Shown here piece by piece: positions 2,570 through 18,143 of a stretch of 64,000 nucleotides of DNA. This stretch comes from Terriglobus albidus (lineage in GTDB: Bacteria; Acidobacteriota; Terriglobia; Terriglobales; Acidobacteriaceae), in NCBI RefSeq assembly GCF_008000815.1, contig NZ_CP042806.1, positions 4,030,001 through 4,094,000 on the forward strand. Reading direction: 5' to 3'. Within the stretch, counting starts at the first letter, position 1. Each line of letters opens with the position of its first letter. The notes under the pieces are model-generated. The model was not told the DNA's origin, did no database searches, and saw only the letters and a list, made by a program, of their open reading frames with translations. The translations under genes and the position numbers were made by a program.

Positions 2570-2575
2570 GTTTCT

Positions 2576-2845: not shown

Positions 2846-2854
2846 GATTGTTCC

Positions 2855-3748: not shown

Positions 3749-4057
3749 CTACTCAGCCTTCCTTACCGGCATCATGGCCTGAACGCCGTGCTCGCTGCTT
3801 CCAACCAGGAACTGCTGACCTTCACACTCCACCAGCGCAAGTTGCTGCTTGTTGCCGAGCGAGACTTGTTCGAGGACACGCAGGCGCTTCTGCTCACGAG
3901 GACGTGTGGCACGTCCCTTCCAGGAACGCAGGATCCAGTGGGCCAGGCCCGCCGGTTCCGGACGACGCATCTCGGCTAGCGGAACGATCGTTCTCTGCAC
4001 GATCGCCAGTTCCGGCTTTACCACTTCGGCTTTGACCATTGCTACGCTGCGACGCAT
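3749..4057 (-). CDS. fliO: FliO-like flagellar biosynthesis protein without a membrane anchor
   Basis: FliO helps assemble the FliP ring. The C-terminal part of this 102-residue protein matches the FliO fold: RVLEQVSLGNKQQLALVECEGQQFLVGSS, the typical short beta-rich domain. I chose the ATG at 4057 because it has an AAGGAG ribosome site 7 nt upstream; the reading frame is open 16 codons further back, but that would run into fliL. With this start there is no hydrophobic N-terminal helix, whereas FliO normally has one membrane segment. Its position just before fliP supports the call. It could also be read as a stand-alone FliO-type domain protein. Confidence 0.75.
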   Translation of the reverse strand: MRRSVAMVKAEVVKPELAIVQRTIVPLAEMRRPEPAGLAHWILRSWKGRATRPREQKRLRVLEQVSLGNKQQLALVECEGQQFLVGSSEHGVQAMMPVRKAE

Positions 4058-4067
4058 CTCTGTCTCC

Positions 4068-4613
4068 TTACCGCTGGACCAGGAATTCTGTGAAGAAGAT
4101 GTCAACCACCTTCAAGCTGGGTTCACGCACAGTAAGCACGGCCTTGATCTCTTTCTTGACCTGCTCTTTGCCCTCAGGCTGCAGCAGTTCTTCTGAGCTC
4201 TTGCGACCCAGGACGTCGATCAACGCGTCCCGCACCGCGACATCTTGCTGGCCGCCGGCCTTGGGCTTCTTCTCCCCGCCCTCTTCCTTCTTCGCGTCAC
4301 CGGGCTTTTCCTCGTCGGCAACGCGCAGGGTGATCGCGGCACGCAAATAAGCGCGCCCGCCCACATCGGTCAGGTTGACTACCATCGGTTCCAGAACCTG
4401 GTCCTTGGTCTTCTGGGGCTCGGTTTTGACGACCTCAACAATCTTTGTGCCGCCACCGCCGAGCTTCCCGGTCTTCCCCATCCACCAGACCAATCCGCCG
4501 GCCGCTCCCACGGCTCCAATAACCGCAACAAAGGCGACAATCGCCAGTTGCACTATGCCCACTTTGGCCACCGGCGCTGCGGGCGTCATCTCTGCTGTCT
4601 CTGCTTTAGCCAT
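4068..4613 (-). CDS. fliL: Flagellar basal body-associated protein FliL
   Basis: FliL is a single-pass membrane protein beside the stator that supports torque. The protein has 181 residues from the ATG at 4613, with a membrane helix at about residues 22-44, a Lys/Glu/Gly-rich linker insertion (EEKPGDAKKEEGGEKKPKAGG) and the typical FliL ending VDIFFTEFLVQR. A GTG three codons upstream (4622) is an alternative start. In many flagellar operons fliM and fliN follow fliL; here fliO follows directly, so the C-ring genes must lie elsewhere or be absent. Confidence 0.9.
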   Translation of the reverse strand: MAKAETAEMTPAAPVAKVGIVQLAIVAFVAVIGAVGAAGGLVWWMGKTGKLGGGGTKIVEVVKTEPQKTKDQVLEPMVVNLTDVGGRAYLRAAITLRVADEEKPGDAKKEEGGEKKPKAGGQQDVAVRDALIDVLGRKSSEELLQPEGKEQVKKEIKAVLTVREPSLKVVDIFFTEFLVQR

Positions 4614-4627
4614 ATGTCCCACTTAAA

Positions 4628-4643
4628 TGCACCTGCCGTGCCA
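4628..4643 (-). promoter_or_regulatory. Near-consensus sigma-54 (-24/-12) promoter before fliL
   Basis: Read on the minus strand the 16 bases are TGGCACGGCAGGTGCA. Against the sigma-54 consensus TGGCACG-N4-TTGCW only one defined position (the first T of TTGC) differs, and GG/GC spacing is exact. The predicted transcription start, 12 nt past the GC, falls near 4617, only a few bases before the fliL ATG. The site also forms one arm of the 12-bp inverted repeat at 4631-4659. Function is inferred from sequence and from the sigma-54 activator gene at 15.1 kb. Confidence 0.65.
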
Positions 4644-4659
4644 TTCAGGCACGGCAGGT
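4631..4659. repeat. Perfect 12-bp inverted repeat between flgE and fliL
   Basis: Arms ACCTGCCGTGCC (4631-4642) and GGCACGGCAGGT (4648-4659) enclose a 5-base loop. In the transcript from flgE this is a strong hairpin placed about 40 nt after the flgE stop, but no T-run follows on the minus strand, so it is more like an attenuator or a 3' end stabiliser than a classic terminator. It overlaps the sigma-54-like site that reads into fliL. Confidence 0.6.
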
Positions 4660-4696
4660 ATTAGTGAGGACTCAGGAAGGCCCCAGGCCCCTACAA

Positions 4697-5929
4697 CTAA
4701 CGGATCATATTGATTGCAGACTGGGTTAGCGTGTCGTAAGCCGTAACGGTCTTGGAGTTTGCCTCGAAGGCGCGCTGGGCAACGATCAGGCGGGAAAACT
4801 CGCCGGCAATATCAACATTGGACTGTTCCAATGAATTTCCCAGCACTGTGCCGCGACCGCCCGCACCGGCGACGCCGATGGATGGCAGACCGGATGCCTG
4901 GCTGGAGATAAAGGAGTTGTTGCCAATCCGGGTCAAACCCTGGGTATCGCTGACCGTGGCGATCGCCAACTGGCCGACCACGCTGCTACGGCCGTTGCTG
5001 TACTTGGCCGAGATAATGCCGTTGGAATCGATGGAGAAGTTCTGGTAGGTACCGCTAGCATAACCGTCCTGGCTGGTGGACGCAGTAGCGGAGGCGGAGC
5101 TGGAGCTTGCGATTACACCGTTGCCGGCACTGTCATAGAGGTTCCAGTTGAAGCTGAGGTCCGCGGCGCTGTTGGTAAGTCCCGGGAAGGTAATGCCAGT
5201 GACATTGCCTGACGGGCCGGTCAGCTTACCGGTGGAGTTGAAAGTGAGCGTCCCAGTGTTGTTGGAAGGCGTACCTGTGATATCGCCGGACGGAAGTTCA
5301 ATGTCGTAGTCCCAGGTTGTATTGCTGGTCTTCGTGAACTTGACGCTCGCCAAATGGGTGTTTCCGAGGGAGTCATACACACTCACCGAGCTGGCGAAGG
5401 TTGTTCCAGTGGCCGCCGAAGAATCCAGATTAGCCTTCAGTGTGACATTTTTCGTGGTACTGGCCGCCTGGTTGGAGCCGATCGGAAGCTGGATCGGAGC
5501 CAGAGCGCCGCCGGTACCGACTGTAACGCCGTCAGTGCTCTGGAAGCCCATCACGCTTGCGCCATCCAGGGTCGTCAGATAGCCATCCTTGGCAAGCTGG
5601 AAGTCGCCGGCGCGCGTAATCTGCTGCTGGCCATGGTCCTGGATCACGAAGAAGCCATCACCGTTCAGCGCCATATCGGTCGCATTATTCGTTGTCGTCA
5701 GACCGCCCTGCGAGAAGTCACCCACCGTACCGGAAACGCGGGTACCGAGTCCGGACTGCAGCGCATTGCCCGAACCAGACTCGCCGAGCTGCTGGTAGAA
5801 GAGGTCTTCGAACTCGGTTGTAGCGCCCTTGAAGGCAACCGTGTTCAGGTTCGCAAGATTGTTGCCGATCGTATTGAGCGCCACGGTATTTGCCTTAAGG
5901 CCCGTCAACGCAATTGAAAATGCACCCAT
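4697..5929 (-). CDS. flgE: Flagellar hook protein FlgE
   Basis: FlgE is the building block of the hook. The 410-residue protein has the rod/hook N-terminal helix GAFSIALTGLKANTVALNT with the following IGNNLANLNTVAFKG motif, central beta-rich domains heavy in Ser, Thr, Gly and Asn, and the matching C-terminal coiled-coil helix ending FEANSKTVTAYDTLTQSAINMIR. It follows flgD by 42 nt with an AGGAGA ribosome site. The surface-exposed middle is poorly conserved, as usual for hook proteins. Confidence 0.96.
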   Translation of the reverse strand: MGAFSIALTGLKANTVALNTIGNNLANLNTVAFKGATTEFEDLFYQQLGESGSGNALQSGLGTRVSGTVGDFSQGGLTTTNNATDMALNGDGFFVIQDHGQQQITRAGDFQLAKDGYLTTLDGASVMGFQSTDGVTVGTGGALAPIQLPIGSNQAASTTKNVTLKANLDSSAATGTTFASSVSVYDSLGNTHLASVKFTKTSNTTWDYDIELPSGDITGTPSNNTGTLTFNSTGKLTGPSGNVTGITFPGLTNSAADLSFNWNLYDSAGNGVIASSSSASATASTSQDGYASGTYQNFSIDSNGIISAKYSNGRSSVVGQLAIATVSDTQGLTRIGNNSFISSQASGLPSIGVAGAGGRGTVLGNSLEQSNVDIAGEFSRLIVAQRAFEANSKTVTAYDTLTQSAINMIR

Positions 5930-5971
5930 CGTAATTCTCCTATCCTTTGTCCGTATTGCTGGAAATCTTTA

Positions 5972-6259
5972 TCAGTTGCTGCTGGAACTTGAATCTGTCG
6001 AGCTGGTGCCCGATGTCAGCGAGGTAATGCCCTGATTGATCGAGATCAACTGCTGCAGGCTGTTTACACTCACGAGTTGCTGCAGGTACGCGCTCGGATC
6101 GGTCGGCTGCGTGGGATCCTGGTTCTTCATCTCGGCCACCAACAGCGTCATAAAGTCACTCGCGGTGATATTGTTGCCACCACTGCTGCTACTGCTTGTT
6201 GAATTGCTCGTACTCGATGTCGAAGCCATCGGGCTTGCTTCGTTCGCATTTACCTGCAT
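5972..6259 (-). CDS. flgD: Minimal FlgD hook-capping/scaffold protein
   Basis: FlgD caps the growing hook. The diagnostic N-terminal motif is present: FMTLLVAEMKNQDPTQPTD followed by YLQQLVSVNSLQQL. The protein is only 95 residues; enterobacterial FlgD exceeds 200 residues because it adds Tudor-like and Ig-like domains that are absent here. A Ser-rich N-terminus (residues 14-28) and Ser-rich C-terminus flank the motif. Short FlgD versions are known in other bacteria, so this can still be functional. It lies between fliK and flgE, the expected neighbours for hook assembly. Confidence 0.88.
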   Translation of the reverse strand: MQVNANEASPMASTSSTSNSTSSSSSGGNNITASDFMTLLVAEMKNQDPTQPTDPSAYLQQLVSVNSLQQLISINQGITSLTSGTSSTDSSSSSN

Positions 6260-6281
6260 TTCCGTCTCTCCTTAATCCGGC

Positions 6282-8438
6282 TTATACCCGGACACTCAAC
6301 AGCCCTAAACCGCGTGATGAGGTCGACAAGGAAGGAGAAGCTCCTACCTGCCGCCACACCAGCTTTTTCTGCTCTGCCCCCGCATCGGTGCCGGAAGACT
6401 GCTGCCCACGGTCCTGTTGCGCTCTCCCGCCCAGGTCCATGTTCATGGCAGCGCTCTCCTGCATCCGGACCACCTGGACTCTGTCCACCGGCACCGTCTG
6501 CTGGCTCAGAAAACTTGTCATATGTGGTGCTTCAGCCTTCAGCACCTCGTGCGAAACCTCACTGCTCGCCATCACCACAGCCTGCACGGTGTTGTCGCTG
6601 CCCTTCTCGGCGCGCACATGCATCACACCATGCGTCTCATCCGCAATCGCAACTTCAATCTGGCGATGTCCGGCGGCTACCCATTGCGCGCCGCTCTCCT
6701 GCGCATTCGATCCTGCAGCCGCATCGAGGCGCGCGAATGGATCGTGAGAAGCTGACTGCGGCGGCTTCGAAGCATTGGCCAGATCCTGAAGATTGTTGAA
6801 GCCCGTCTCCACTTTCAGGGCAGAAACCGTATGCAGTTTGTTATCCACGGTGTGGACCGCAGGAGAATGCGCTACCTGCGGAGCAGCCGCTTCGGGAGCA
6901 GAAGTATTTTTCTCCGCAGGAGCGGAAACATCCTGCAAGGTCTTCGTTACTCCTGCCTCATCCTTCGCAGACTTTTCATCTTTTGCAGTGGCCGTTTTTT
7001 GTCGTTCTGCCACCTGAACTGGACGTCCGAACTTACCTGCAACCGCTTTAGTTGTTACCGTCTTTACCGCGACAACCGACTGAAGCGGACCCTCGACGCT
7101 ATCTCCCTGCTCCTGCTTCTGCACAGTTGGAGCCGCGGAGGTCATCGGCATGGCATTGACGGCTGCATCGCTCTGGATAATCTGCTGCTGGGGAGCAACA
7201 TTGTTTCCGGTCTCCCTGTGTGAGATCTTTCCAGAGACAGAACCCTTGCTACTGCCACGTACAGTGGAATGGGACTCAGAAGAAGACAGTGCATCTTTGC
7301 CAACCTTGGTCGGCTCGCCCCCGGCTAACTCCGCCGGCATCGCAGGAACGATAACGGCAGCAACAAGGCTCCCATCCTGACCATTGTCCTGAGCATCGTT
7401 CTTTTCGTCAGAGGACGATGGCACCTGCGGTACATCTTCTTTTGTATCGGTTGAAATCTGGCCCTTCGGGCTGTCTGCTTTTACCAGTGCGGCCGTCTGC
7501 GACACATCGCTTCCAGACCCAATGTCGATAGCGCGAACGATGGGCTGGTAGGCATATTGATGTCCGCGCGGCATGACGAGCGGAAGCGTTCCCGTACCCG
7601 CCTTCGACTCCTGTGTCTGCGACGGAACTTGTGGCTGGGGTACGGTTTCCCGTGTTGAAGTAGCTTGCTGGTCCGGAGTCGCCTGTACTGCCGTATTCGC
7701 TTGAGCCGGTATCTCTGATTGCGCGGGCGCATCCTTGGTCACAGGCGCAGGCTGTACCGGAATCGGTGGCGCAGAAGCATTTGGCTTCACGGCCACTGCG
7801 ACGGCAGGTTCCGTATCGGAAGTCTTCCCCTTATCGCTGTCTGATACAGGCGAGGCATTCTCTGATTGTGAAACTGGCTCTGCGTCTGATTCGTGCGGAG
7901 CCTGCGGCAACAGCTTAGTGTCAGCGGGCTGCGATCTATCCTGAGCCACTGGGACTGGCAATTCCTGCGCAGCCATCGTCCCCACCGCATTCTTCGGATC
8001 AGCTTGTGGCGCTTCAACATCGGGGATGCTTCCCATCGGCTGCGGGACCACATCACTTACGGCAGAAGCACCTTGTGGTGCAGTAACTGTCTGTGAAGTA
8101 GTCGGCGCGGACGCTGCTGATGTCTCGGCTGAATGCGGCACCGTTTCCACGGCGGAAGTAGTCTGCTGCAGAGATCCGCGAGAAAGATCGGGGGCTTTGT
8201 CGAATGTTCCAGCAAGCAACGTCTGCGTCGCAGGAATCTTAGTCTTGCCATCAGCCAGGACCGTCGCATCCGTCGCTGTCTGTGTTCCGGTTCCCGCTGC
8301 TGCTTCAAACATGCCGGCAAACAGCGAGTCTCCTGTGCCCGACAGATTGTCGCTAATCCCTGTCGAGTGCACGTCAGACGATATTGCCGTTCCTCGCGCG
8401 AGCGAGGGTCCGATCGTCGCTGCTGCCATGTCCATCAT
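6282..8438 (-). CDS. fliK: Flagellar hook-length control protein FliK
   Basis: FliK measures hook length and triggers the FlhB specificity switch. At 718 residues it is long for the family. Residues 1 to about 560 are a low-complexity, mostly unstructured stretch rich in Ala, Ser, Thr, Pro and Gln. The C-terminal region (about 580-680) carries the flg_hook-type domain, with IEVAIADETHGVMHVRAEKG and VQAVVMASSEVSHEVLKAEAP. The assignment rests on this domain and on position between fliJ and flgD. A sigma-54-like promoter lies directly before the ATG. Confidence 0.88.
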   Translation of the reverse strand: MMDMAAATIGPSLARGTAISSDVHSTGISDNLSGTGDSLFAGMFEAAAGTGTQTATDATVLADGKTKIPATQTLLAGTFDKAPDLSRGSLQQTTSAVETVPHSAETSAASAPTTSQTVTAPQGASAVSDVVPQPMGSIPDVEAPQADPKNAVGTMAAQELPVPVAQDRSQPADTKLLPQAPHESDAEPVSQSENASPVSDSDKGKTSDTEPAVAVAVKPNASAPPIPVQPAPVTKDAPAQSEIPAQANTAVQATPDQQATSTRETVPQPQVPSQTQESKAGTGTLPLVMPRGHQYAYQPIVRAIDIGSGSDVSQTAALVKADSPKGQISTDTKEDVPQVPSSSDEKNDAQDNGQDGSLVAAVIVPAMPAELAGGEPTKVGKDALSSSESHSTVRGSSKGSVSGKISHRETGNNVAPQQQIIQSDAAVNAMPMTSAAPTVQKQEQGDSVEGPLQSVVAVKTVTTKAVAGKFGRPVQVAERQKTATAKDEKSAKDEAGVTKTLQDVSAPAEKNTSAPEAAAPQVAHSPAVHTVDNKLHTVSALKVETGFNNLQDLANASKPPQSASHDPFARLDAAAGSNAQESGAQWVAAGHRQIEVAIADETHGVMHVRAEKGSDNTVQAVVMASSEVSHEVLKAEAPHMTSFLSQQTVPVDRVQVVRMQESAAMNMDLGGRAQQDRGQQSSGTDAGAEQKKLVWRQVGASPSLSTSSRGLGLLSVRV

Positions 8439-8450
8439 GCCCTGGATATG

Positions 8451-8466
8451 TGCAGTTCACGTTCCA
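8451..8466 (-). promoter_or_regulatory. Candidate sigma-54 (-24/-12) promoter before fliK
   Basis: The minus-strand sequence TGGAACGTGAACTGCA matches 10 of the 12 defined positions of TGGCACG-N4-TTGCW with exact GG/GC spacing. The predicted start point, near 8440, is two bases before the fliK ATG, so a transcript from here would be almost leaderless. Matches of this quality occur by chance in long sequence; the location in the small fliJ-fliK gap of a flagellar operon is what raises its value. Confidence 0.45.
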
Positions 8467-8479
8467 AAACAACAGCGCT

Positions 8480-8941
8480 TTATATTAGTGTCTCTTTAGC
8501 AATCTTTTTCTTTGCCGCATGCTGCTTGATGAGAAAGAATTCATCCGCAGCCTTCTGTGCACGAAGATCTTCTTCAGCGGCCCGAGTTCTCATCGCTTCC
8601 CGATAGAGCGACTTCATCTGTTCGAGCTTCTGTTGTTGAACGAGCATTGCCTCTTGCGCCACGCGAATGCGCTCATTCGCACGGACAAGGTCTTCGTTAA
8701 GCTGTCTCTCTTTTTGATCAGTGAACGCTGACTCCGACGACGACAGAATCCATTGCTCGGAGTCGCCGACACTTAGCGCATCCTGCGCATTCTTCTTCAG
8801 GACATCTCGTCGTGACTGGATTGTTCGAATGTTCTGTTCGATCTGTTGCCTGCGCATAAATGCCTGTTGCAGGACACCCTCTGCCTTTTCAGCTTCAGTC
8901 TCCGCAACACGCAGTAAAAGTGCAGCCCGCGCCAGCTCCAT
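8480..8941 (-). CDS. fliJ: Flagellar export chaperone FliJ
   Basis: FliJ is the small coiled-coil stalk protein of the FliH-FliI ATPase complex. The 153-residue sequence is almost wholly helical and charged, with long heptad-like stretches (for example LNEDLVRANERIRVAQEAM), as expected for FliJ, which is poorly conserved in sequence. It begins 3 nt after the fliI stop. The identification depends largely on coiled-coil character, length and position. Confidence 0.85.
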   Translation of the reverse strand: MELARAALLLRVAETEAEKAEGVLQQAFMRRQQIEQNIRTIQSRRDVLKKNAQDALSVGDSEQWILSSSESAFTDQKERQLNEDLVRANERIRVAQEAMLVQQQKLEQMKSLYREAMRTRAAEEDLRAQKAADEFFLIKQHAAKKKIAKETLI

Positions 8942-8944
8942 GGC

Positions 8945-10249
8945 TTAGCTCCCCAAACCGAGAGAGAATAATGCACGCAATACAGCGTCCCGATCGACCT
9001 GTTCATTTGCAGTCTGTTGCAGGAACCGCTGCAGCACCGGCCGCATCCGCACTGCCTCATCGAGTTCCGCATCGTTACCGGTCTGATAAGCGCCAATACG
9101 GATCAGGTCTTCTGACTTTGCATAGGCCGACAGCAGGCGGCGTACATGATTCGCGATACGCAGATGCTCAGGTGTTGTTACTGCCGGCATCAAACGGCTC
9201 ACTGAGTCCACGACGTTCACCGGCGGATACCATCCCGCTCCGGCCATCTGCCGCGAAAGCACGATATGTCCATCGACGATGGAGCGGACAGAATCCACAA
9301 TCGGATCCTGCTGATCGTCACCCTCCATCAGAACCGTATAGAACGCTGTAATGCTGCCCGTCTGAAAGTTTCCAGCCCGTTCCAGCAGCCGTGCTGTCTT
9401 GGCAAATACCGAAGGTGTATACCCCTTGCTCGCGGGCGGCTCACCGGCAGCGAGTCCAATCTCGCGCGCCGCCATGGCGAAACGAGTTACCGAATCCAGA
9501 ACCAGCAATACATTCTTGCCCTGGGCTGCGAAGTACTCTGCCACTGATGTTGCAGACATCGCCACACGCATACGCATCAGCGGAGACTGGTCGCTGGTCG
9601 CCACCATAACGACGCTACGCTTGCGTCCTTCTTCGCCGATGGCGTCCTCAAGAAACTCGCCTACCTCTCGTCCGCGTTCGCCAACGAGACCGACAACCGT
9701 AAGATCCGCCGATGTATTGCGGGTCATCATGCCGATCAGCGTGCTCTTACCGACACCCGATCCGCCAAAGATACCGATACGCTGTCCACGGCCTACCGAA
9801 AGAACTCCATCGATGACGCGCAGTCCCGTACCAAGGGGTTCACGAATCGGCTTCCGCTCCATTGGACCTGGAGGGTTCACATCCAATGGCCACCGTTCGA
9901 TCACATCGAGCGGCGGACCGCCATCGATCGGTTGGCCGCCCGCGTCGAAGACGCGGCCAAGCATCTGCTCACTTACAGAAAGCGAGGGTCTGCGACGCAT
10001 CGCAAACACCTTTGCACCGAAACGAACGCCGGCAACCGCATCTACCGGACTCAGCAGCGTGCGGCTGCCGCGAATGCCTACAACCTCGGCCTCAAGCCGG
10101 TTGCCGTCAGCGACGATTTCGCAACACTCACCTACGGAACAAGGAGGTCCGTCTGCCTCAATCAGTTGGCCTTCCGCTTCAGCAACACGTCCGCTCCATC
10201 GCCAAGAAGGCGTCGAAGACAGCCGTGCGTGAAAGCGTTGCAACCTCAT
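8945..10249 (-). CDS. fliI: Flagellum-specific ATPase FliI
   Basis: FliI is the F1-beta-like ATPase energising flagellar export. The protein has 434 residues with Walker A GGSGVGKST at 162-170, a Walker B region around NVLLVLDSVTRFAMA, and the FliI/T3SS signature motifs GERGREVGEFLED and PASKGYTPSVFAKTARLLERAG. The ATG overlaps the fliH stop by 4 nt (ATGA). Confidence 0.98.
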   Translation of the reverse strand: MRLQRFHARLSSTPSWRWSGRVAEAEGQLIEADGPPCSVGECCEIVADGNRLEAEVVGIRGSRTLLSPVDAVAGVRFGAKVFAMRRRPSLSVSEQMLGRVFDAGGQPIDGGPPLDVIERWPLDVNPPGPMERKPIREPLGTGLRVIDGVLSVGRGQRIGIFGGSGVGKSTLIGMMTRNTSADLTVVGLVGERGREVGEFLEDAIGEEGRKRSVVMVATSDQSPLMRMRVAMSATSVAEYFAAQGKNVLLVLDSVTRFAMAAREIGLAAGEPPASKGYTPSVFAKTARLLERAGNFQTGSITAFYTVLMEGDDQQDPIVDSVRSIVDGHIVLSRQMAGAGWYPPVNVVDSVSRLMPAVTTPEHLRIANHVRRLLSAYAKSEDLIRIGAYQTGNDAELDEAVRMRPVLQRFLQQTANEQVDRDAVLRALFSLGLGS

Positions 10250-10905
10250 GAGGGACGCTTTCCGAGCAGTTCGCAGAAGCTGGTCTCAATCTCAGAAAGC
10301 TGCGCTTCCACTCCCAGGTCCACAGAGCCACACTTTGTATACAGCTCACAGGACCCCGGCTGCATTACACCATCCCCTTCGACCTGAACGTCCTCGCCTT
10401 GCAGAATATCTGTCCATGCTGCAACATCGGCGCGAGGCACGCGAAGACGGACTTCATCCTCGCTGGTCATCTGTTCCACCGCCACACGCACTACGCCACG
10501 CAGCATGAGAGGATCAAGCTTCGCTTCACGATTCAGAATGCGCCGCGCCAAAGCGAGGGCAAGCTTTACGACCTCCGCTTCAGCATCGGCAAAATAACGT
10601 TTGCGCTCTGCTTCAAATGCTTCTATGGCATCACTGATCTCGCGGCGAGCTTCGGCGCGCTGCTCCTCTGCCTCTTCTTCCATTGCTGCGCGCGCCTGTT
10701 TTGCGCCCTGCTCGCGCGCCAGAGAAACGTCTGCGATACGTTGCTGCTCTGCCTGGAAAAGCGCCGCGCGAAGGCTTTCCAATTCAGCAGTTAGATCCTC
10801 TTCTGCTTCGGCGGCCTGGACCTCACGTCCAAGGCGTCCATGCGACCGGAACCGTAGCGGGCCTACAGAGTGATCACGCCCCGTAGACTCAAGCGGAAAG
10901 GTCAT
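10246..10905 (-). CDS. fliH: Flagellar export ATPase regulator FliH
   Basis: FliH is the peripheral-stalk-like partner of FliI. The 219-residue protein has an Ala/Glu-rich coiled coil (about residues 30-115, for example ARAAMEEEAEEQRAEARRE) followed by the FliH/HrpE-like domain with LALALARRILNREAKLDP and VRVAVEQMTSEDEVRLRV. The start, with a GGAG site 7 nt upstream, lies inside the end of fliG (17-nt overlap). Confidence 0.93.
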   Translation of the reverse strand: MTFPLESTGRDHSVGPLRFRSHGRLGREVQAAEAEEDLTAELESLRAALFQAEQQRIADVSLAREQGAKQARAAMEEEAEEQRAEARREISDAIEAFEAERKRYFADAEAEVVKLALALARRILNREAKLDPLMLRGVVRVAVEQMTSEDEVRLRVPRADVAAWTDILQGEDVQVEGDGVMQPGSCELYTKCGSVDLGVEAQLSEIETSFCELLGKRPS

Positions 10906-11920
10906 TATCAGTCTCCATTCTCAGCATCAGCTTCCCTTCTGCTTCAAGCCGCCGTGCCAGAGCTAACAGTTCCTGCTGGGCCTGAGCGACATCGCGCGAG
11001 CGGACAGGCCCCATCACTTCCATATCCTCGCGAAGCATTTCTGCAGCGCGCGTGCTCATCGCCTGGAACAGGTGCGCACGTAGAGATTCCTTGGCGCCCT
11101 TCATCGCGGTCGACAGAATCTTCTTGTCTGCCGCCCCGACGATCTCGCGAATGCCGGCCTGCGGTACCGTCAGCAAGTCGTCGAAGGTGAACATCAGGTT
11201 GCGGATACCAAGAGCGATCTCCGGCTGATTTTGCTCGATGTCTTCGAGAATTTTCTTGCTTAGCATCTGATCCACGCGATTCAGCATCTCGGCCACGGCC
11301 TTGAAACCTGCGTAGGAATGTTTCTTGTTCTGTCCGATCGACTCCGAACGGCGATACAGTTGCAGCGCAACTTTCTGCGCCATCTCCGGGGAGAACTGGC
11401 GCATCTCTGCAAGCCTCTTCACCACCTCTGTCCGCAGCTCCTCACTCAGGGCGATCAGAACGAGTGCGGCGCGGCCAGCTTCCAGGTGAGCCAGGACCAG
11501 TGCGACTGTCTGGGGATGCTCGCCCTCGAGGAACTTCGCCAACTGCCGTGGATCAATCTTCTGCAACATGGTGAGGTCGCTCATGGAGCGCTCACGCAGG
11601 CGCCACACTTCGTTCAACAGCTCTTCTGCGCGATTCTCTCCAAAGGCCTTCTGCAGCAGGCGACGGGCATAGTCAACACCGCCACGCGTAGCGAACTTCT
11701 GCGTCTCCTGCAGGGCATAGTACTCACCGATCACGTTGGCCAGTTCTTCCCTGGGAACCGTGCCGAGACGCATGATCTCTTCCGTCACGCGCTGGACGTC
11801 TGTTTCAGACAGATACTGAAACATCTCCTTTGCGAGGTCGTCACCTATCGCGACCATGAAGACCGCCGCTTTGCGCAGGCCTGCTGCACGGGTCATCGGC
11901 GAATTATTCTGAGAAGCCAT
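10889..11920 (-). CDS. fliG: Flagellar motor switch protein FliG
   Basis: FliG is the rotor protein that contacts the stator. At 343 residues it has standard length, with the N-terminal FliF-binding domain (about 10-90), the middle ARM domain including IDPRQLAKFLEGEHPQTVALVL, and the C-terminal charge-bearing domain with NLMFTFDDLLTVPQAGIRE near residue 225. All three regions are intact. FliM and FliN, its normal C-ring partners, are not encoded in this window. Confidence 0.98.
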   Translation of the reverse strand: MASQNNSPMTRAAGLRKAAVFMVAIGDDLAKEMFQYLSETDVQRVTEEIMRLGTVPREELANVIGEYYALQETQKFATRGGVDYARRLLQKAFGENRAEELLNEVWRLRERSMSDLTMLQKIDPRQLAKFLEGEHPQTVALVLAHLEAGRAALVLIALSEELRTEVVKRLAEMRQFSPEMAQKVALQLYRRSESIGQNKKHSYAGFKAVAEMLNRVDQMLSKKILEDIEQNQPEIALGIRNLMFTFDDLLTVPQAGIREIVGAADKKILSTAMKGAKESLRAHLFQAMSTRAAEMLREDMEVMGPVRSRDVAQAQQELLALARRLEAEGKLMLRMETDNDLSA

Positions 11921-11945
11921 TTTTCGTCACCAAGAAAGGGTTGCG

Positions 11946-13760
11946 TTACTCGTCCATGTCCGTAGCAATCCAGTGCTCAAGCAGGCGCGTGCTCTGCTTG
12001 GGTTCTGTACGGATTTGCTTCTTAACCTGTTCGAAGATCATCTGCTCTTCACTGTTCTCTGTTTTCAGACCGTTCGAGGCACCCAGTACCGGCGTATCCG
12101 GAGAGCCTTCCGTCAGGAGAGACGCTGGTTCCGTGATCGGTAGGACACCTGCTGCCGCGCCTGCACCTGCGGCAGCAAGAGCGGGAGTCTGCTGCGCCAT
12201 TAATGCAGGGGGCTCAGGTTCCTGCATCAGCGCCGCAGTCTGCTTGACCATCGGACGCAGGACGAACATCACCAGCAGCAGCCCCATCGCTACCACGCCC
12301 GCGGTGCGAACCACACCTGGGGTGCGTATCAGTTCTTGCGTTTGCTCCGTGACACGCTGCAGTGGAGTCAAGGGAACTTCCGCGCTGTTTGTCTGGAAGC
12401 TGATGTTCTCCAGCACAAGCTGATCTCCGCGTTTGGGATCAAATCCCGTGGATGCCTGTGCGAGTTGTTCCAGGCGACGCATCTCTTCACTGCTGCGGGC
12501 ATGCCAGACGGTATGCATGTCCTTACCTGCGCCTTCCAGTTGCGGACGATCGTTTACCAGAACAGCAACAGTAAGCCGCTTCAACCGGCCCGGGCCTTCC
12601 TGCATGTGGCTCAGGTGCCGGGTCACTGCATAGTTGGCACTCTCTTCACGAGCGTTGTTGCTCGTCCCGCTGCCACCCTGCGGATATACAGGCAGATTGC
12701 CGTTCTGCATCAGAGGAGGAACATTGCCCTGGCCATTCGCCTGCTGGTTAGCCGCACCATTGGCTCCGGCGGCCGCTGGTCCGCCCGCGGCATTGCTCTG
12801 TGTTCCCGGAACTCCCGCCGCGACCCTCTGGGAACCTTGCACCTGCTCGGTCCGTTGCATGCTGACGGTCGCCGAGAGTGCCGGATCATAGACCTCATCG
12901 GTTTTTTCTTCCGTGCCCTGCTCGTACTCCGCATGAACTGTAGCGTGTACATTATCCCGCCCAGCCACCGGCTCCAGCATGGAGATGAGTTGCTGCTCCA
13001 TCTGGTGAACAGCGTCAGTCTGCTGCGCCGACTGTGTCGGCGCGCTCATATTGACATGACCATCCGCATCCACCAGGTTCACCTGATCCGGCTGCAGATT
13101 CTCCACTGCGCCGGCTACCAGATTGCGAATCGATTCGGCCTCGCCCTGAGCCATGGTCGAACGGCGGAGCTTCAGCACTACCGTTGCCTTAGCCGGATGA
13201 TCCTCTGCACTGAATAGACCCTGCTTGGCCATGGCCAGGTGGACACGCGCAGAACGCACGGAGCCAAGAGTGCCAATCGTATGTTCCAACTCACCTTCAA
13301 GAGCACGCTGATAGTTGACCTTCTCATCGAACTCGGAACCAACCCAGTTCGGTTTATCGAAGATCTCAAAGCCCATGCGTCCGCTCTGCGGCATCCCTTT
13401 GCTGGCCACTTCCATACGTGCCTTGTCCAGCAACTCTTCAGGCACAAGCACTTCGCTGCCGTCGGACGAGATCTTGGCATTAATTCCTGCCGCGCTCAGT
13501 TCCTGGCTGACAGCCTGCACATCCTTTGGATCAAGCCCACTGAAAAGCATCTTCCATTCTGTGCGGGAGCCGTACCAGCTGAGAGCAGCAACTACAGCAA
13601 GCACAATTGCAGATGCCAGCATCAAACGCGAGCGCTGCGCCTTCGGTAAAGCATTCCAACGGCCCCCGACATTGCTCACCAGACGCTGCCAGGGAGCGGC
13701 GCCATCGCTGAGACCGGGGGTAGAACCTGTTTTCTGTAATTCAGTCTTCTGATCTGGCAT
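11946..13760 (-). CDS. fliF: Flagellar MS-ring protein FliF
   Basis: FliF builds the MS ring. The 604-residue protein has a first membrane helix near residues 45-65 (LASAIVLAVVAALSWYG), ring-building periplasmic domains, a Gly/Asn/Ala-rich linker around residue 320-360, and a second helix near residue 500 (VAMGLLLVMFVLRP). The C-terminal tail EQVKKQIRTEPKQSTRLLEHWI is the FliG-binding segment. It follows fliE by 9 nt. Confidence 0.97.
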   Translation of the reverse strand: MPDQKTELQKTGSTPGLSDGAAPWQRLVSNVGGRWNALPKAQRSRLMLASAIVLAVVAALSWYGSRTEWKMLFSGLDPKDVQAVSQELSAAGINAKISSDGSEVLVPEELLDKARMEVASKGMPQSGRMGFEIFDKPNWVGSEFDEKVNYQRALEGELEHTIGTLGSVRSARVHLAMAKQGLFSAEDHPAKATVVLKLRRSTMAQGEAESIRNLVAGAVENLQPDQVNLVDADGHVNMSAPTQSAQQTDAVHQMEQQLISMLEPVAGRDNVHATVHAEYEQGTEEKTDEVYDPALSATVSMQRTEQVQGSQRVAAGVPGTQSNAAGGPAAAGANGAANQQANGQGNVPPLMQNGNLPVYPQGGSGTSNNAREESANYAVTRHLSHMQEGPGRLKRLTVAVLVNDRPQLEGAGKDMHTVWHARSSEEMRRLEQLAQASTGFDPKRGDQLVLENISFQTNSAEVPLTPLQRVTEQTQELIRTPGVVRTAGVVAMGLLLVMFVLRPMVKQTAALMQEPEPPALMAQQTPALAAAGAGAAAGVLPITEPASLLTEGSPDTPVLGASNGLKTENSEEQMIFEQVKKQIRTEPKQSTRLLEHWIATDMDE

Positions 13761-13769
13761 TGTTATGTC

Positions 13770-14069
13770 TTAGAACTGCATCTGCATCATCTGCTGGTAT
13801 GCAGCTACGGCTTTATTCCGTACCTGCAGAGCTAACTCGAAGGCCATGTCCGCTTTCTGGGTTGCAATCATCGCCTCGTGAATTTCGACACCGCTACCGT
13901 CCATCAAACCCTTTACAGCCGTCTGCGCCTGCTTGTCCAACGCAGTGGCATCATGCAGCGCACCCGCCAGAACATTGGCAAAAGGAGATTCCGCCTGCTC
14001 GGTCGAAGCTGGTGGCGTGACCACATTGCCGATTCCGGGAATTGTTCCTGTTAGCCGAATCGCGTCCAT
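13770..14069 (-). CDS. fliE: Flagellar hook-basal body protein FliE
   Basis: FliE joins the MS ring to the proximal rod. The 99-residue protein shows the FliE features: a mid-helix ATQKADMAFELALQVRNK and the C-terminal ending AVAAYQQMMQMQF. The position between flgC and fliF is standard. Confidence 0.95.
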   Translation of the reverse strand: MDAIRLTGTIPGIGNVVTPPASTEQAESPFANVLAGALHDATALDKQAQTAVKGLMDGSGVEIHEAMIATQKADMAFELALQVRNKAVAAYQQMMQMQF

Positions 14070-14078
14070 ATCTGTCTC

Positions 14079-14540
14079 TTACTTCAAGATGTCCAGCGAG
14101 CTGGTGATCATGCTTTTCTCTGCCTGTACCGCCGATGCATTCATTCCGTAGCTGCGCTGCGCACTCATCAGTTCCACCATCTCGGTCAGCGGATCGATAT
14201 CGGGATAGGCAACATATCCATTCGCATCGGCGTCCGGATGTCCCGGATCAAAGCGCATAATCGGCGCTTTGGCATCATCCTGCACTCCGGCAACTTCCAC
14301 GCCTCCGGTCGCATTTGAGCTCACAGAGCCGCCATGCATTCCGAGATGCGACATAAAGGCAGCGCCGAACGTGCCATCCTGGCCGGCGGTCTGGAAGACC
14401 ACCTGCTGCCTGCGGTACGGTCCTCCATCGGCGGTGCGGGTCGTCTCCGCATTGGCCATATTGCTGGCCGTTACTTCGGCGCGAACTCTCTCGGCCTGCA
14501 GCGCGGATGCGCTGACATCCATCACACCAAACAGATTCAT
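14079..14540 (-). CDS. flgC: Flagellar proximal rod protein FlgC
   Basis: FlgC is a proximal rod subunit. It has 153 residues, with an N-terminal rod helix (MDVSASALQAERVRAEVTAS followed by NMANAETTRT) and the C-terminal motif PLTEMVELMSAQRSYGMNAS. The ATG overlaps the flgB stop by 4 nt. Confidence 0.96.
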   Translation of the reverse strand: MNLFGVMDVSASALQAERVRAEVTASNMANAETTRTADGGPYRRQQVVFQTAGQDGTFGAAFMSHLGMHGGSVSSNATGGVEVAGVQDDAKAPIMRFDPGHPDADANGYVAYPDIDPLTEMVELMSAQRSYGMNASAVQAEKSMITSSLDILK

Positions 14541-14893
14541 GCCTTACCGTCCGCTTTGATCGCGTCCATGACGCGCGAATATTCCCGCTTCAGCAGTTCC
14601 ACGCCGGTACGGAAAGCGAGCTGTGACTTTGCCAACTGCATGCCCTCGCGCTCAAGGGAGACATTGTTGCCGTCCGGCCGGGCCACCAGGCCATCAACAT
14701 CCTGCGTGCCCGGAGTAAATGTGCCGCTTGCGGTGCCCTCCATGGCGTGCCGCATCTCATCTTCGAAACTGAAACCCTGAGTCCGGTAGCCGGGAGTGTC
14801 AGCATTGGCCATATTGCTGGCCGTTAGCTTCATCTGGGAGCTGGCCAGGTCCAGATACCGCGTCAACGCATCACTGATCGCACTGGTCTGCAT
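14537..14893 (-). CDS. flgB: Flagellar proximal rod protein FlgB
   Basis: FlgB is a proximal rod subunit and here the first gene of the flagellar operon. The 118-residue sequence has the family motif LTASNMANADTPGYRTQGF near residues 23-42 and a C-terminal helix with LAFRTGVELLKREYSRV. A GGGAGAGG ribosome site precedes the ATG and a candidate sigma-54 promoter lies 47 nt upstream of it. Confidence 0.96.
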   Translation of the reverse strand: MQTSAISDALTRYLDLASSQMKLTASNMANADTPGYRTQGFSFEDEMRHAMEGTASGTFTPGTQDVDGLVARPDGNNVSLEREGMQLAKSQLAFRTGVELLKREYSRVMDAIKADGKA

Positions 14894-15083: not shown

Positions 15084-16298
15084 CTATGCCCGTTTGCGAC
15101 GGAGGATCACTTCCGTCATTCCAATCTCCGGACGGTCTTCCGCCAGAATGGCCGCTCGCTCCAAAACGTGCCCTAATTCGCGGACATTTCCGGGCCAGTC
15201 GTATCCCTGGAAGGTCTCCAGGGCCGCCTGGGAGAGGCGTTTCTGCGGCATCGTTTCGCCAAGCTTATTGAGGATATGTGTCGCCAGCAGCGGGATGTCC
15301 TCTGCCCGCTCGCGCAATGCCGGAATGACCACAGGAAAAACTGCCAGCCGATGGTAGAGGTCCAGCCGGAAGGTCCGCTCCTGGCTCAGCCGTTCCAGAT
15401 CGCGGTGGGTTGCAGCGATCACACGCACATCTACCCGAACGGTCTCGTTGTCGCCTACCCGCTGCAGTTCCCCGTTCTCCAGAAAGCGCAACATCTTGGC
15501 CTGCAATGGCAGCGGCATCTCACCAATTTCGTCCAGAAACAACGTGCCGCCATTCGCTGCCTCAATGCGGCCGGTGCGTGACTGCACTGCGCCGGTAAAG
15601 GCACCGCGGGTATGCCCGAACAGTTCGGCTTCCAACAGCGCCTCCGGAATGGCGGCGCAGTTCAAGGTCACAAATGGCTTCTGGGAGCGAGGGCTGAGCC
15701 GGTGGATCGCCCTTGAAACCACCTCTTTACCTGTCCCCGTCTCTCCTTCAATCAGGACGGTCGTATCGCGGGGCGCAACCAGACGAACCATGCGAGCCAG
15801 CTCGCGCATGCCCGAGCTATTACCGATCATTCCCGGCAACAAGGCCGCATCCACAGGAAGCTCAGAGGGAACAATCACGGGGACGGGCGCCGCAGGCTCT
15901 CGCTCGGGGACTACGGCCGCCGGTGCCGGCGTCTCCACCATATCTTCCTCTGCTGCCCGTAGGACATGCAGCAACTCATGCCGCCGTGGGCTTCTCGGTC
16001 CGTCTCCCACCGGTGCACCATCGGCACGCAGAATATCGACCGATGGAAATGCCTGACGTACCCAAGCGATAAATCCATCCACTTCCAGGTCCGGCAACCA
16101 GTTGTCGACAATAAGAGCTTCCGGAATATGCTGCTCCATGCTCGCCATCGCCTCTGCGCCGCCGGAAGCGGCCTCCACCTGCCAACGCAGGCCCTCAAGC
16201 GACGTAACCCATCGAAAACGCCGGTCTCCGTCTGCGCTGACAACAACGGCATGGCGAACGGATACCGATCCGTTCGCCACCCTAGTTTCAAATGGCAT
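15084..16298 (-). CDS. Sigma-54-dependent response regulator lacking a DNA-binding domain (FlgR-like)
   Basis: This 404-residue protein remodels sigma-54 RNA polymerase. Residues about 12-95 resemble a receiver domain with a possible phosphate-accepting Asp65 (ALIVDNWLPD), but the acidic pair and conserved Lys are not clear, so it may be degenerate. A Pro/Ala linker (about 122-155) leads to a complete AAA+ domain: Walker A GETGTGKE 185-192, the sigma-54 contact loop GAFTGA 232-237, Walker B GTLFLDEIGE 251-260, arginine-finger region RLDLYHRL 311-318. The protein stops about 30 residues after WPGNVREL (368-375), so the usual Fis-type helix-turn-helix is missing. Helicobacter and Campylobacter FlgR include such HTH-less flagellar activators. 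Its start overlaps the preceding stop by 1 nt. Confidence 0.92.
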   Translation of the reverse strand: MPFETRVANGSVSVRHAVVVSADGDRRFRWVTSLEGLRWQVEAASGGAEAMASMEQHIPEALIVDNWLPDLEVDGFIAWVRQAFPSVDILRADGAPVGDGPRSPRRHELLHVLRAAEEDMVETPAPAAVVPEREPAAPVPVIVPSELPVDAALLPGMIGNSSGMRELARMVRLVAPRDTTVLIEGETGTGKEVVSRAIHRLSPRSQKPFVTLNCAAIPEALLEAELFGHTRGAFTGAVQSRTGRIEAANGGTLFLDEIGEMPLPLQAKMLRFLENGELQRVGDNETVRVDVRVIAATHRDLERLSQERTFRLDLYHRLAVFPVVIPALRERAEDIPLLATHILNKLGETMPQKRLSQAALETFQGYDWPGNVRELGHVLERAAILAEDRPEIGMTEVILRRKRA

Positions 16299-16537
16299 TA
16301 TTTAAGGTCCCCTGGCCCGTCTTGCATCGCTTCTCGAAGCTGCTGCCGCATCCGCATTGCGATGCCATTCAAGCGTTCGCATTCCGTCAGACTGTCGGCT
16401 ATGGCGCGACGCATGCCTTCCTCGTCGCCCTCCATCTCTGCCAACTCTAGACGGCACTGCAACGCCGTCAGCGGTTGGCACAGGTCATGCAGCATCACAC
16501 TCAGTTCCTGCACCTGTTCACGATCCATAATTGTCAC
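16298..16537 (-). CDS. Stand-alone histidine phosphoacceptor (DHp/HisKA-like) small protein
   Basis: This 79-residue protein has the look of a histidine-kinase dimerisation domain with nothing else: the H-box LHDLCQPLTALQ (His17), a first helix to about residue 34, a turn, and a second helix DSLTECERLNGIAMRMRQQL. No ATP-binding (N, G1, F or G2) motifs follow. By analogy with DHp and HPt domains it could pass phosphate between a distant kinase and the adjacent regulators, or act as a dimeric binding partner. It is coupled to both neighbours (GTGA overlap upstream, TAATG downstream). The start is GTG 16537; ATG 16528 is possible. The family call is by motif only. Confidence 0.75.
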   Translation of the reverse strand: MTIMDREQVQELSVMLHDLCQPLTALQCRLELAEMEGDEEGMRRAIADSLTECERLNGIAMRMRQQLREAMQDGPGDLK

Positions 16538-17295
16538 GCGTGTCGCAATATCCGTGTTGTACTACCGGCGGCTACGCTCTGTGAACCTGATTTTTCCGGA
16601 AGGCCACCGAGGAATGACATATTCCGTAACCGATAACCCTCGCCGCGAACCGTTTCAATCAACGCAGCGCCATCCGATACCCCTTGCACGGTCAGCTTCC
16701 GGCGCAGGTAGTTGATGTATACGTCCACAACATTGGTCCCAGTATGGGACGTTGTCCGCCAAACACCCTTCAGAAGCTGTGCACGGGAAACGGCCTTCCC
16801 CTTATGGAGCAGGAGGTACTCGAGCAGGGCATATTCCTTTGAGGTCAGCTCTACTTCCACGTCGGCCACGCGCACCTGACGGAGCATACGGTTCACTTCC
16901 AGGACACCGTACTTCAGAAGCTGATCGGGTACGTGCTTCTTCCGGCGCATCACAGCACGGCAGCGCGCTGTTAACTCATGGAAGCTGAATGGTTTGAGCA
17001 GATAATCGTCGGCTCCGAGATCCAGACAGCGCACCCGCTCTTCGACCTGAGTCCGCCCGGTCAGTACAAGTACGGAAGTGTGGGGCATCCTGCGGTGTAC
17101 TTCCTCAAGCAGTTGAGCTCCATCCATTTTGGGCAAACTCAGATCCAGAACGACAAGCTCCGGATTCTCTTCCATTGCGTGATGGAGCGCGGCTTCTCCA
17201 TCCTGTAACCACTCGACTTGATGACCTTCTTTTTCAAGTCCCCTCTTCAAGAGCATTCCAAGGGCTTTATCGTCTTCCACCAGCAGAATTCCCAT
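16534..17295 (-). CDS. OmpR/PhoB-family response regulator
   Basis: This is a DNA-binding response regulator of 253 residues. The receiver domain has the acidic pair (VEDD), the phosphorylation site in VVLDLSLPKMDG and the conserved Lys in LLKPFS; the C-terminal winged helix has ELTSKEYALLEYLLLHKGK and VVDVYINYLRRKL. I chose ATG 17295 because GGAG lies 6 nt before it; a TTG four codons upstream overlaps that site. A tail of about 30 Ser/Gly-rich residues extends past the winged helix. It heads the trio with the DHp-like protein and the sigma-54 activator. No cognate full-length kinase is adjacent. Confidence 0.93.
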   Translation of the reverse strand: MGILLVEDDKALGMLLKRGLEKEGHQVEWLQDGEAALHHAMEENPELVVLDLSLPKMDGAQLLEEVHRRMPHTSVLVLTGRTQVEERVRCLDLGADDYLLKPFSFHELTARCRAVMRRKKHVPDQLLKYGVLEVNRMLRQVRVADVEVELTSKEYALLEYLLLHKGKAVSRAQLLKGVWRTTSHTGTNVVDVYINYLRRKLTVQGVSDGAALIETVRGEGYRLRNMSFLGGLPEKSGSQSVAAGSTTRILRHA

Positions 17296-17407
17296 TTGTT
17301 TCTCCAATTCACTGACTAACCTAGCGAAAAGCTAAAAGTTCCGACTCTTGCGTTCGTTCACGTCTTTGCAGATAAGACTTATGTACCTACCTTGATTCGT
17401 GCACAGG

Positions 17408-17505: not shown

Positions 17506-17533
17506 TTGCGATTCGCTTTTTATTCGCTAAAAT
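17506..17533 (+). promoter_or_regulatory. Candidate lexA promoter
   Basis: TTGCGA (17506-17511) and TAAAAT (17528-17533) are spaced by 16 bp. A start 7-8 nt past the -10 would fall at the ATG at 17541, implying a leaderless or nearly leaderless mRNA. This fits the lack of any ribosome-binding sequence before either possible lexA start. Confidence 0.5.
17511..17528 (+). promoter_or_regulatory. Direct repeat ATTCGCT-N4-ATTCGCT, candidate LexA operator
   Basis: Two exact copies of ATTCGCT (17511-17517 and 17522-17528) with an 11-bp period lie between the -35 and -10 of the candidate lexA promoter. Alphaproteobacterial LexA boxes are direct repeats (GTTC-N7-GTTC) with the same 11-bp period; here the equivalent would be ATTC-N7-ATTC. 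Autoregulation by LexA is the usual arrangement. The operator assignment is inference. Confidence 0.4.
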
Positions 17534-17540
17534 GTCAGAC

Positions 17541-18143
17541 ATGGCAATTACCCGGCGGCAAAAGGACGTTCTCGACTTCCTCACCTCATTCACGCAGCGT
17601 TGCGGATATTCCCCTTCGTATGAGGAGATCGCCAGCGGCCTCGGCGTCAATTCGCTTGCCACCGTTCACAAGCACATCACGAACCTACAGAACAAAGGTT
17701 TGTTGCAGCGTGCACACAATCGCAGCCGTTCGATCGACGTTCTACCGGCACGTTCTTCCAAGAAAGGTACCGATCGCCTTCCACTGTTAGGCCGCATTGC
17801 CGCTGGACGGCCGGTGGAAGCAGTCGAGACGGCTGAAACCATCTCGCTCAGCGATATTCTTGGCAACCGGGAGGTCTTCGCTCTCGAGGTCCGTGGCGAT
17901 TCCATGCGGGACGAACATATCGTCTCCGGCGACTATGTTCTGGTTGAGCGTACCCGCACCGCCCGGGAGGGCGAAATTGTCGTCGCTTTGGTGGACGGTA
18001 CTGATGCCACCCTAAAGCGGTTTTACAGGGAAGGCAGCATGATTCGCCTACAACCTTCAAACTCCGAGATGGCGCCGATCTTCGCCCCGGCGGCCGCGGT
18101 AACGATCCAGGGTAAGGTCCTGGGCGTGCTACGAAAGTACTAG
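17541..18143 (+). CDS. lexA: SOS repressor LexA
   Basis: LexA represses DNA-damage genes and cleaves itself with RecA help. From ATG 17541 it has 200 residues: an N-terminal winged HTH (RRQKDVLDFLTSFTQRCGYS then VHKHITNLQNKGLL), the Ala-Gly cleavage site at A88-G89 (GRIAAGRPV), catalytic Ser121 (GDSMRDEHI) and Lys159 (ATLKRFYREG). An in-frame ATG at 17532 is an alternative; it overlaps the putative -10, which favours 17541. The stop codon TAG is shared with the left end of a palindromic element. Confidence 0.97.
   Translation: MAITRRQKDVLDFLTSFTQRCGYSPSYEEIASGLGVNSLATVHKHITNLQNKGLLQRAHNRSRSIDVLPARSSKKGTDRLPLLGRIAAGRPVEAVETAETISLSDILGNREVFALEVRGDSMRDEHIVSGDYVLVERTRTAREGEIVVALVDGTDATLKRFYREGSMIRLQPSNSEMAPIFAPAAAVTIQGKVLGVLRKY

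Follow-up and report, generated by a model that had tools for sequence, protein, structure and literature searches.

What can a protein do that keeps the phosphoacceptor domain of a histidine kinase and nothing of its catalytic part? The question is raised by gene X, which encodes a protein of 79 residues and lies between the genes for an OmpR/PhoB-type response regulator and a sigma-54 activator, EBP1, in Terriglobus albidus (NZ_CP042806.1, positions 4,030,001 to 4,094,000 of the forward strand; this whole stretch of 64,000 nucleotides is called the window, and the regulator, X and EBP1 together the cassette). X, which occurs in a group of soil acidobacteria, was found to contain a dimerisation and histidine phosphotransfer (DHp) domain without a catalytic ATP-binding (CA) domain, and it looks like what stably remains, still under selection, of a kinase stripped of its catalytic machinery. 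Its role is read tentatively, at somewhat less than even confidence, as that of a DHp dimer whose histidine acts on the OmpR-type regulator, as a shuttle or a sink of phosphoryl groups. The members of the cassette were located in the window as follows.

16298..16537, minus strand: X, DHp-only protein of 79 residues with a GTG start, recognised by a HisKA profile match and an alignment of 47 sequences
16534..17307, minus strand: OmpR/PhoB-type response regulator, with a receiver (Response_reg, 1.3e-29) and a winged-helix DNA-binding domain (Trans_reg_C, 3.3e-24)
15084..16298, minus strand: EBP1, sigma-54 activator of 404 residues, with an AAA+ domain containing GAFTGA (Sigma54_activat, 3.3e-70) and a Response_reg match at 0.023

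The DHp-only gene and its protein

At its upstream end X was found to share four nucleotides (GTGA) with the stop of the regulator gene, and at its downstream end, in the sequence TAATG, one nucleotide with the start of EBP1. The regulator was listed with a TTG start at 17307, an ATG at 17295 being possible too. Residues 9-59 of X matched Pfam HisKA (PF00512; E=7.2e-6, 26.4 bits), with His17 in the stretch LHDLCQPLTALQ, followed by the presence of Glu52, Arg55, Met63 and Arg64 in the second helix. No match to HATPase_c or to an HPt family was found in Pfam at E up to 1, and no match to a sensor domain. A hidden catalytic domain after X is excluded because EBP1 starts on the stop codon of X. 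The sequence-only reading of the window, which had described a HisKA-like protein of this length, locked in place by a 4-nucleotide and a 1-nucleotide overlap and free of catalytic, sensor and HPt domains, was therefore confirmed in its description of the gene.

The alignment of short forms contained the window protein and 46 of 49 short X references, the near-copies L036, L038 and L099 being omitted; L093, missed by BLAST and recovered by a profile, was not in it, L090 had been dropped earlier as cut by a contig end, and L048, which was included, may lack its start because the contig ends there. X is a genuine gene and not a chance open reading frame, because it occupies the same place in dozens of loci, because 28 of the 47 short forms matched HisKA on their own at E<=0.01, and because the window gene differs from that of T. 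albidus L037 at 13 of 240 bases and at one residue of the protein. Three other identities were tried and rejected, namely a truncated or frameshifted kinase (there is no room for a CA domain before EBP1, and the relatives are of similar length), an HPt protein (no Pfam HPt match) and a recent pseudogene (low omega and invariant residues).

A helical-hairpin dimer, that is a four-helix bundle, may be expected for X from its likeness to known domains. The single sequence gave no meaningful match in a PDB search. The profile of the 47 short forms matched isolated EnvZ DHp structures and chimeras, with His aligned with His (3zrw_B at E=0.0038 and 1joy at E=0.015), and most of its top matches were EnvZ DHp constructs.

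Three states of the middle gene

With X as the query, matches at E<=0.001 were found in 53 of 200 genomes of the family, the best being short open reading frames between the same two regulators and the weaker ones longer proteins, some of them ordinary kinases. The N-terminus of EBP1 was used as a further probe, the named loci being the best 80 of 92 relatives together with further loci; the nearest among those 80 was T. albidus L037 of the class Terriglobia. X was also present in Terriglobus roseus DSM 18391 (L095). Over the phylum EBP1 was found at E<=1e-14 in 27 of 297 genomes, all in the window's own family, in a draw for which the number of genomes lying outside the class is not fully shown. 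Over the class it was found at E<=1e-13 in 82 of 250 genomes, in families f1, f3, f5, f7, f8 and f11, and this spread points to the class Terriglobia, and no more. The order regulator-X-EBP1 was found to be conserved in relatives, as was His17 in all 47 DHp-only forms, two of the features by which the sequence-only reading had proposed to judge the gene. Of 46 named loci, 37 showed an overlap of X with the regulator gene; this is an upper estimate, the start codons having been picked nearest to a 4-nucleotide overlap.

The middle gene was found in three states. The long state, present in distant Terriglobia, contained 213-365 residues with a DHp domain followed by a CA-like domain; the short state contained the DHp domain only, with about 71-106 residues where complete; and in the absent state the regulator stood immediately before EBP1. 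Among 171 overlapping loci, some contigs of which were reached two ways so that loci are not independent species, 26 were long, 56 short and 71 absent, 6 contained a gap of 235-337 nucleotides without a DHp domain and 12 contained neither the regulator nor a DHp domain; the 56 include L172, which is actually a long X of 227 residues. A search for a decayed DHp domain in the gaps of nine loci gave a best E of 0.22. Two genomes were found to carry two cassettes each (L229 and L231 in G220; L230 and L245 in G225), one without X and with a kinase and a second activator, the other with a DHp-type X. Two contigs titled Rhodanobacteraceae (L057 and L067) also carried the cassette and fell inside the acidobacterial clade of the tree described below; they are probably mislabelled bins.

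Tree and direction of change

A quick maximum-likelihood tree was built from the regulator and EBP1 (LG+G4, no mixture, 616 columns), with 134 rows remaining from 148 usable loci after filtering at 97% identity; loci that had no regulator gene, or an EBP1 shorter than 300 residues, were left out. It has no root, and several of its rows sit on long branches. One clade was found to contain 46 DHp-only loci, with Terriglobus, Granulicella and Edaphobacter, together with the X-less gap locus L052 (SH-aLRT 99), and it adjoins the long form L114 and the gap locus L119 (support of the union 98), all of these standing next to a clade of 41 absent and 2 gap rows. Elsewhere in the tree L165, a DHp-only gene of about 100 residues, stood beside a long form (support 83). 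At least 6 changes are needed on the tree for presence and absence of X and 8 for the three states. From this tree the three states are read as an erosion series from pseudokinase to DHp domain to nothing, a direction that we infer.

The long form and the kinases beside it

The long form looks like a pseudokinase when its nucleotide-binding boxes are compared. HisKA was matched at E<=1 in all 11 long proteins scanned (best 3.5e-10) and HATPase_c in 3 of the 11, and the long-form profile matched whole histidine kinase cores in the PDB (7zp0, 1.2e-21). In the alignment the N, G1 and G2 boxes were all intact in one of 27 long forms (L223) against three of three neighbouring FlrB-like kinases, and at least one box was degenerate in the other 26. 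L154 and L235 retained the Asn of the N box and the Asp of G1 and not the glycines, and part of G1 was retained in L207, L209 and L211.

In many long-form loci EBP1 was found to be followed by an FlrB-like kinase and a second activator and then by flgB. Within the stretches fetched, the kinase and second activator were present in 16 of 26 long loci (17 of 27 with L172) against none of the 55 other short loci. The arrangement before flgB was observed in L156, L158, L159, L166, L206, L207, L209, L211, L217 and others. Three downstream kinases that were inspected had intact boxes, and two second activators contained a receiver, an AAA+ domain and a C-terminal extension taken for a helix-turn-helix (HTH) domain. 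The window contains no kinase or second activator after EBP1.

Conservation and selection

In the 47 short proteins His17, Gln21, Pro22 and Thr24 were found to be invariant, together with Leu16, Leu23, Leu26, Cys28, Leu30 and Arg55 at 90% or more. The H...QP core, including the His, was also invariant in 27 of 27 long forms. Accordingly, every one of the 47 short and 27 long forms has Gln at the fourth position after the histidine (H+4), which does not agree with the E/DxxT/N phosphatase motif. The residue after His was D or E in 33 of 47 short against 6 of 27 long forms, a count that ignores relatedness, and 11 of the 14 short forms without the acid contained Gly.

X is under purifying selection, unevenly. 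Nei-Gojobori omega was calculated for pairs with 0.05 < pS < 0.55 and more than 60 codons. It was 0.01-0.02 for L036 and L038, whose X proteins are identical to that of the window, against T. albidus L037, and 0.06-0.14 in seven other close pairs. In most pairs shown, the closest excepted, omega of X was higher than that of both neighbours.

The two receivers and the partner tests

The OmpR-type regulator was found to contain a complete receiver site. In the window the acidic pair, the Asp, the Thr and the Lys are all present. All 46 short rows kept the acidic pair, Asp and Lys, and their Thr site was T in 41 and S in 5. The acidic pair, Asp and Lys were also kept in all 23 long rows compared, and in 41 absent rows the two acidic positions were Asp in 38 and 39.

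The EBP1 receiver matched Response_reg at E<=0.01 in 51 of 56, and its profile gave NtrC1 receivers at the top of the PDB matches with FleR further down. Its phosphoacceptor-site Asp was invariant (128 of 128 rows, and 134 of 134 in a joint alignment with the regulator). In none of the 128 rows was the first residue of its acidic pair acidic (it was Ala, Pro, Ser, Thr or Gly), and in the joint alignment it was non-acidic in 133 of 134; the second was Asp in 96 of 128. In the 134 rows of the joint alignment the Thr position was occupied by Asp in 104, and at the Lys position, in a stretch that aligns poorly, Ser prevailed and Lys did not occur among the residues listed. EBP1 was also observed to represent a family of sigma-54 activators of the Terriglobia in which the receiver is atypical and has an invariant Asp and a common WLPDL motif. 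No HTH family was matched in Pfam by EBP1 of the window, and the residues after GNVREL had medians of 36 in short, 43 in long and 35 in absent rows, with a maximum of 87; judged by match or by length, the EBP1 relatives would be without a DNA-binding domain. Loci with X and loci without it had similar residues at the EBP1 positions compared. Across 70 rows carrying X, mutual information gave z>4 for 19 of 7680 pairs with the regulator and for 3 of 7360 pairs with EBP1.

Proposed role of X and other explanations

X cannot be a kinase alone because it has no CA domain, and phosphoryl exchange is the option left by the invariant His, the missing CA domain and the Gln at H+4. X would be a bare DHp dimer, the stripped end product of a histidine kinase or pseudokinase, which docks on the adjacent OmpR-type regulator and uses its histidine to act on it. 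The phosphoryl group of X would most likely come either from the regulator in its phosphorylated state or from a kinase acting in trans, to be given away or lost afterwards. EBP1 would probably be steered by protein contacts or by co-expression and not by phosphotransfer from X. The dimer, the docking partner and the phosphotransfer are, like the direction of change, what we infer.

A number of results weigh against this account. The HisKA score of X (26.4 bits) lies below the Pfam gathering score of 26.9, 19 of the 47 short relatives had no HisKA match at E<=0.01, the EnvZ matches of the short-form profile were borderline, and its top PDB match was 3may (0.0016), which is read as a chance local alignment. 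The sister clade of 41 absent and 2 gap rows is without X, and X is missing from several other branches while the regulator and EBP1 stay; X is therefore dispensable over evolution. Omega was 0.29-0.47 among L097, L098, L099 and L101, and 0.54-0.80 among L091, L103 and L108. The DHp-docking surface of the regulator was not significantly more conserved in X-bearing loci (p=0.20), the covarying pairs were not concentrated on the presumed docking surface, and no phosphodonor was found for X.

It is rather unlikely that X is instead a phosphatase of the adjacent regulator, as isolated EnvZ DHp is of OmpR. The explanation would suit the EnvZ DHp constructs that make up most of the top PDB matches, as well as a neighbour of the OmpR family, and EnvZ phosphatase activity without the catalytic domain was reportedly described by Zhu et al. 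in 2000, going by the title. FixL, moreover, carries Gln at H+4. The DHp domain of HK853 alone has been described with kinase and phosphatase activity (PMC5727384), and kinases built on FixL act as net phosphatases in one of their states (PMC11164954). A dissection of a HisKA domain, however, assigned the acid after His to the kinase and not the phosphatase reaction and Thr or Asn at H+4 to the phosphatase reaction, and the N-to-Q change at H+4 of CrdS left no measurable phosphatase activity (PMC3510030). A pure phosphatase would also not obviously require an invariant His. The phosphatase-only partner of the sequence-only reading is thus retained as a rival, to which the Gln found at H+4 in every member examined is opposed.

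It is unlikely that X is one half of a split kinase, receiving its phosphoryl group in trans from a catalytic domain on a different protein and passing it to the regulator. The acid after His, far more frequent in short than in long forms, could be taken as if kinase chemistry had returned, and L165, the DHp-only gene on another branch, also contains HD. EnvZ can function as two separate domains (PMC3591291), and the genome of the window (G000) was found to contain 77 HATPase_c matches, four of them in open frames of 90-182 residues and one in a 59-residue frame with a stop. Against this explanation, no gene for a catalytic domain was found next to the cassette in the window, the 14 short forms without the acid (11 with Gly) would not suit it, and X does not contain the HE/DxxN/T motif used for candidate bifunctional split kinases (PMC3591291).

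It is quite unlikely that X is a non-catalytic adaptor or sensor which binds the regulator, phosphorylated or not, or bridges it to EBP1, in the manner of DivL with DivK~P (PMC4211667). The position between the two regulators, the overlap with the regulator gene in at most 37 of 46 named loci and the conservation of helix residues beyond His would fit an adaptor. Strict invariance of His is not expected of one, DivL having Tyr at that place, and there was no sign of contact with EBP1, the compared residues of which do not vary with X.

That X is a hub passing the phosphoryl group between both receivers, as the sequence-only reading had proposed as one of its options, is very improbable, even though the gene position and the invariant EBP1 Asp (invariant also where X is absent) would suit it: phosphorelay into EBP1 would be unlikely because its receiver is without several active-site residues, namely the first residue of the acidic pair and, in most rows, any counterpart of Thr and Lys. 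Equally improbable is a decaying remnant that does hardly anything, if anything at all, and is retained for a time through translational coupling, a reading which the series from long to DHp-only to absent and the relaxed omega in some Granulicella-group pairs would suit, and against which stand the retention of X in all but one of the 47 rows of a deep clade, the invariant H, Q, P and T and omega of 0.01-0.14 in several pairs.

The flagellar operon and the cassette beyond it

Downstream of the cassette the window was found to contain a flagellar operon, and upstream a divergent lexA gene.

14537..14893, minus strand: flgB, first structural gene of the operon (Flg_bb_rod, 26.5 bits against a cut-off of 20.7), named from position and length
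14079..14540, minus strand: flgC (Flg_bbr_C and Flg_bb_rod), named from position and length
702..14069, minus strand: rest of the operon, with Pfam matches for fliE, fliF, fliG, fliH, fliI, fliJ, a flgE-type gene, fliL, fliO, fliP, fliR and flhB
17532..18143, plus strand: lexA (LexA_DNA_bind and Peptidase_S24), divergent from the cassette

The fliJ match was just below the cut-off (27.6 against 28.4 bits). A protein of 718 residues inside the operon (6282-8438, minus strand) had no Pfam match at 1e-5 and sits where a hook-length protein might be expected. The fliA gene was found 1.5 kb beyond the window, at the far end of the operon (G000:C1:4027826-4028482, minus strand), in a genome of 6.4 Mb on one contig which contains rpoN. 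The sigma-54 promoter consensus was matched 85 times in the window against 71.8 (sd 8.4) expected, and 7 of 100 shuffles reached as many. A LexA homologue was observed opposite the cassette in 9 of 15 short loci (L007-L021), each of only 2.3-3.2 kb.

The cassette was also found without flagellar genes. No match to FlgB, FlgC, FliE, FliF, FliG or FliI was found in the stretch of 16 short named loci reaching at least about 2.8 kb past EBP1, nor in that of L117 and L231. Loci in which no flagellar structural genes were found included L047, L055, L080, L085 and others, with genomes G188, G116 and G095. In all three loci tested (L047, L080 and L085) the gene after EBP1 was a FliA/WhiG sigma factor above the NCBIfam cut-off, and since fliA of the window stands at the far end of the flagellar operon, the structural genes would have been deleted between EBP1 and fliA. 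Among 18 genomes tested for FliF, 16 carried X, and FliF was present in 13 of these and not in G095, G188 and G116 (completeness 99-100%); the cassette therefore persists, at least for some time, after the flagellum is lost. In G064 and G220 FliF and the X cassette were on different contigs. In G095 a flgB-like start was observed just after EBP1 (L241:6612-7998), running into a long frame with flgK-like sequence, which looks like a deletion scar of the flagellar operon. In L122 (G070), a cassette without X, the FlgC match lay in a 54-residue frame and the FliF match in a 179-residue frame, which suggests decaying flagellar genes.

The interpretation of the sequence-only reading is in sum partly supported, and the results go beyond it in presenting X as a reduced form of a longer pseudokinase and the cassette as not tied to flagella. 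Carried further, and somewhat unlikely as a whole, the CA-free DHp domain would be a conserved working part of a flagellar or post-flagellar cassette and the last functional stage of pseudokinase erosion, charged in trans, with either a distant kinase or, by back-transfer, a receiver as the source, and tuning an OmpR-type regulator coupled to an HTH-less sigma-54 activator. One conserved place may here show the whittling of a sensor kinase to a pseudokinase with a degenerate ATP site, to the DHp domain alone and to nothing, and as the bare DHp stage is kept across a clade, the worth of a kinase His without its ATPase becomes testable. Attention is also drawn to the pairing of an OmpR-type regulator with an HTH-less sigma-54 activator, a cassette which heads Terriglobia flagellar operons and persists in some relatives without flagellar genes.

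Comparison with known systems

Stand-alone HisKA proteins are a known class, SMART having listed 1556 of 42417 HisKA proteins without HATPase (PMC3591291). No description of the cassette was found in the literature on two-component genes of acidobacterial flagella, on proteins made of a DHp domain alone and on flagellar activators without an HTH domain, subscription papers lying largely outside the search, which agrees with the remark of the sequence-only reading that no such circuit was described.

Several systems resemble parts of the proposal. FlrB-FlrC, FleS-FleR and FlgS-FlgR are pairs of a kinase and a sigma-54 activator for flagellar genes (PMC7064773), and a similar pair follows EBP1 in relatives; the kinases FlrB, FleS and FlgS contain HisKA and HATPase_c, whereas the window has no such pair after EBP1. 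Like EBP1, FlgR of Helicobacter is reported to lack an HTH domain. In the split kinases CheA3-CheA4, as in HATPase-less HisKA proteins and in X, the phosphoacceptor is on a polypeptide of its own, but CheA3 uses a P1 domain and its kinase partner is identified (PMC3591291), whereas that of X is not. DivL, to which X is likened, is a kinase core reused without kinase activity for reading a regulator (PMC4211667); it has Tyr for His and retains CA and PAS domains, while X has the His and no CA domain.

ChpT of Caulobacter and Spo0B of Bacillus are DHp-type dimers without ATP use, as is proposed for X. Spo0B has a C-terminal domain and partners. Phosphoryl exchange has been described for ChpT, and its layout of a DHp and a degenerate CA domain is that of the long relatives of X; ChpT keeps this C-terminal Bergerat-like domain and has known partners (PMC3433190), whereas X has neither such a domain nor a known donor. 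Of similar size are the DHp domains of EnvZ (1joy, 67 residues) and HK853, which are the same domain as X, with a partner of the OmpR family and an HDLxxPLT H-box. The EnvZ DHp domain, however, is a laboratory truncation with Thr at H+4; X, encoded by a gene that stands alone in nature, has an invariant Gln there.

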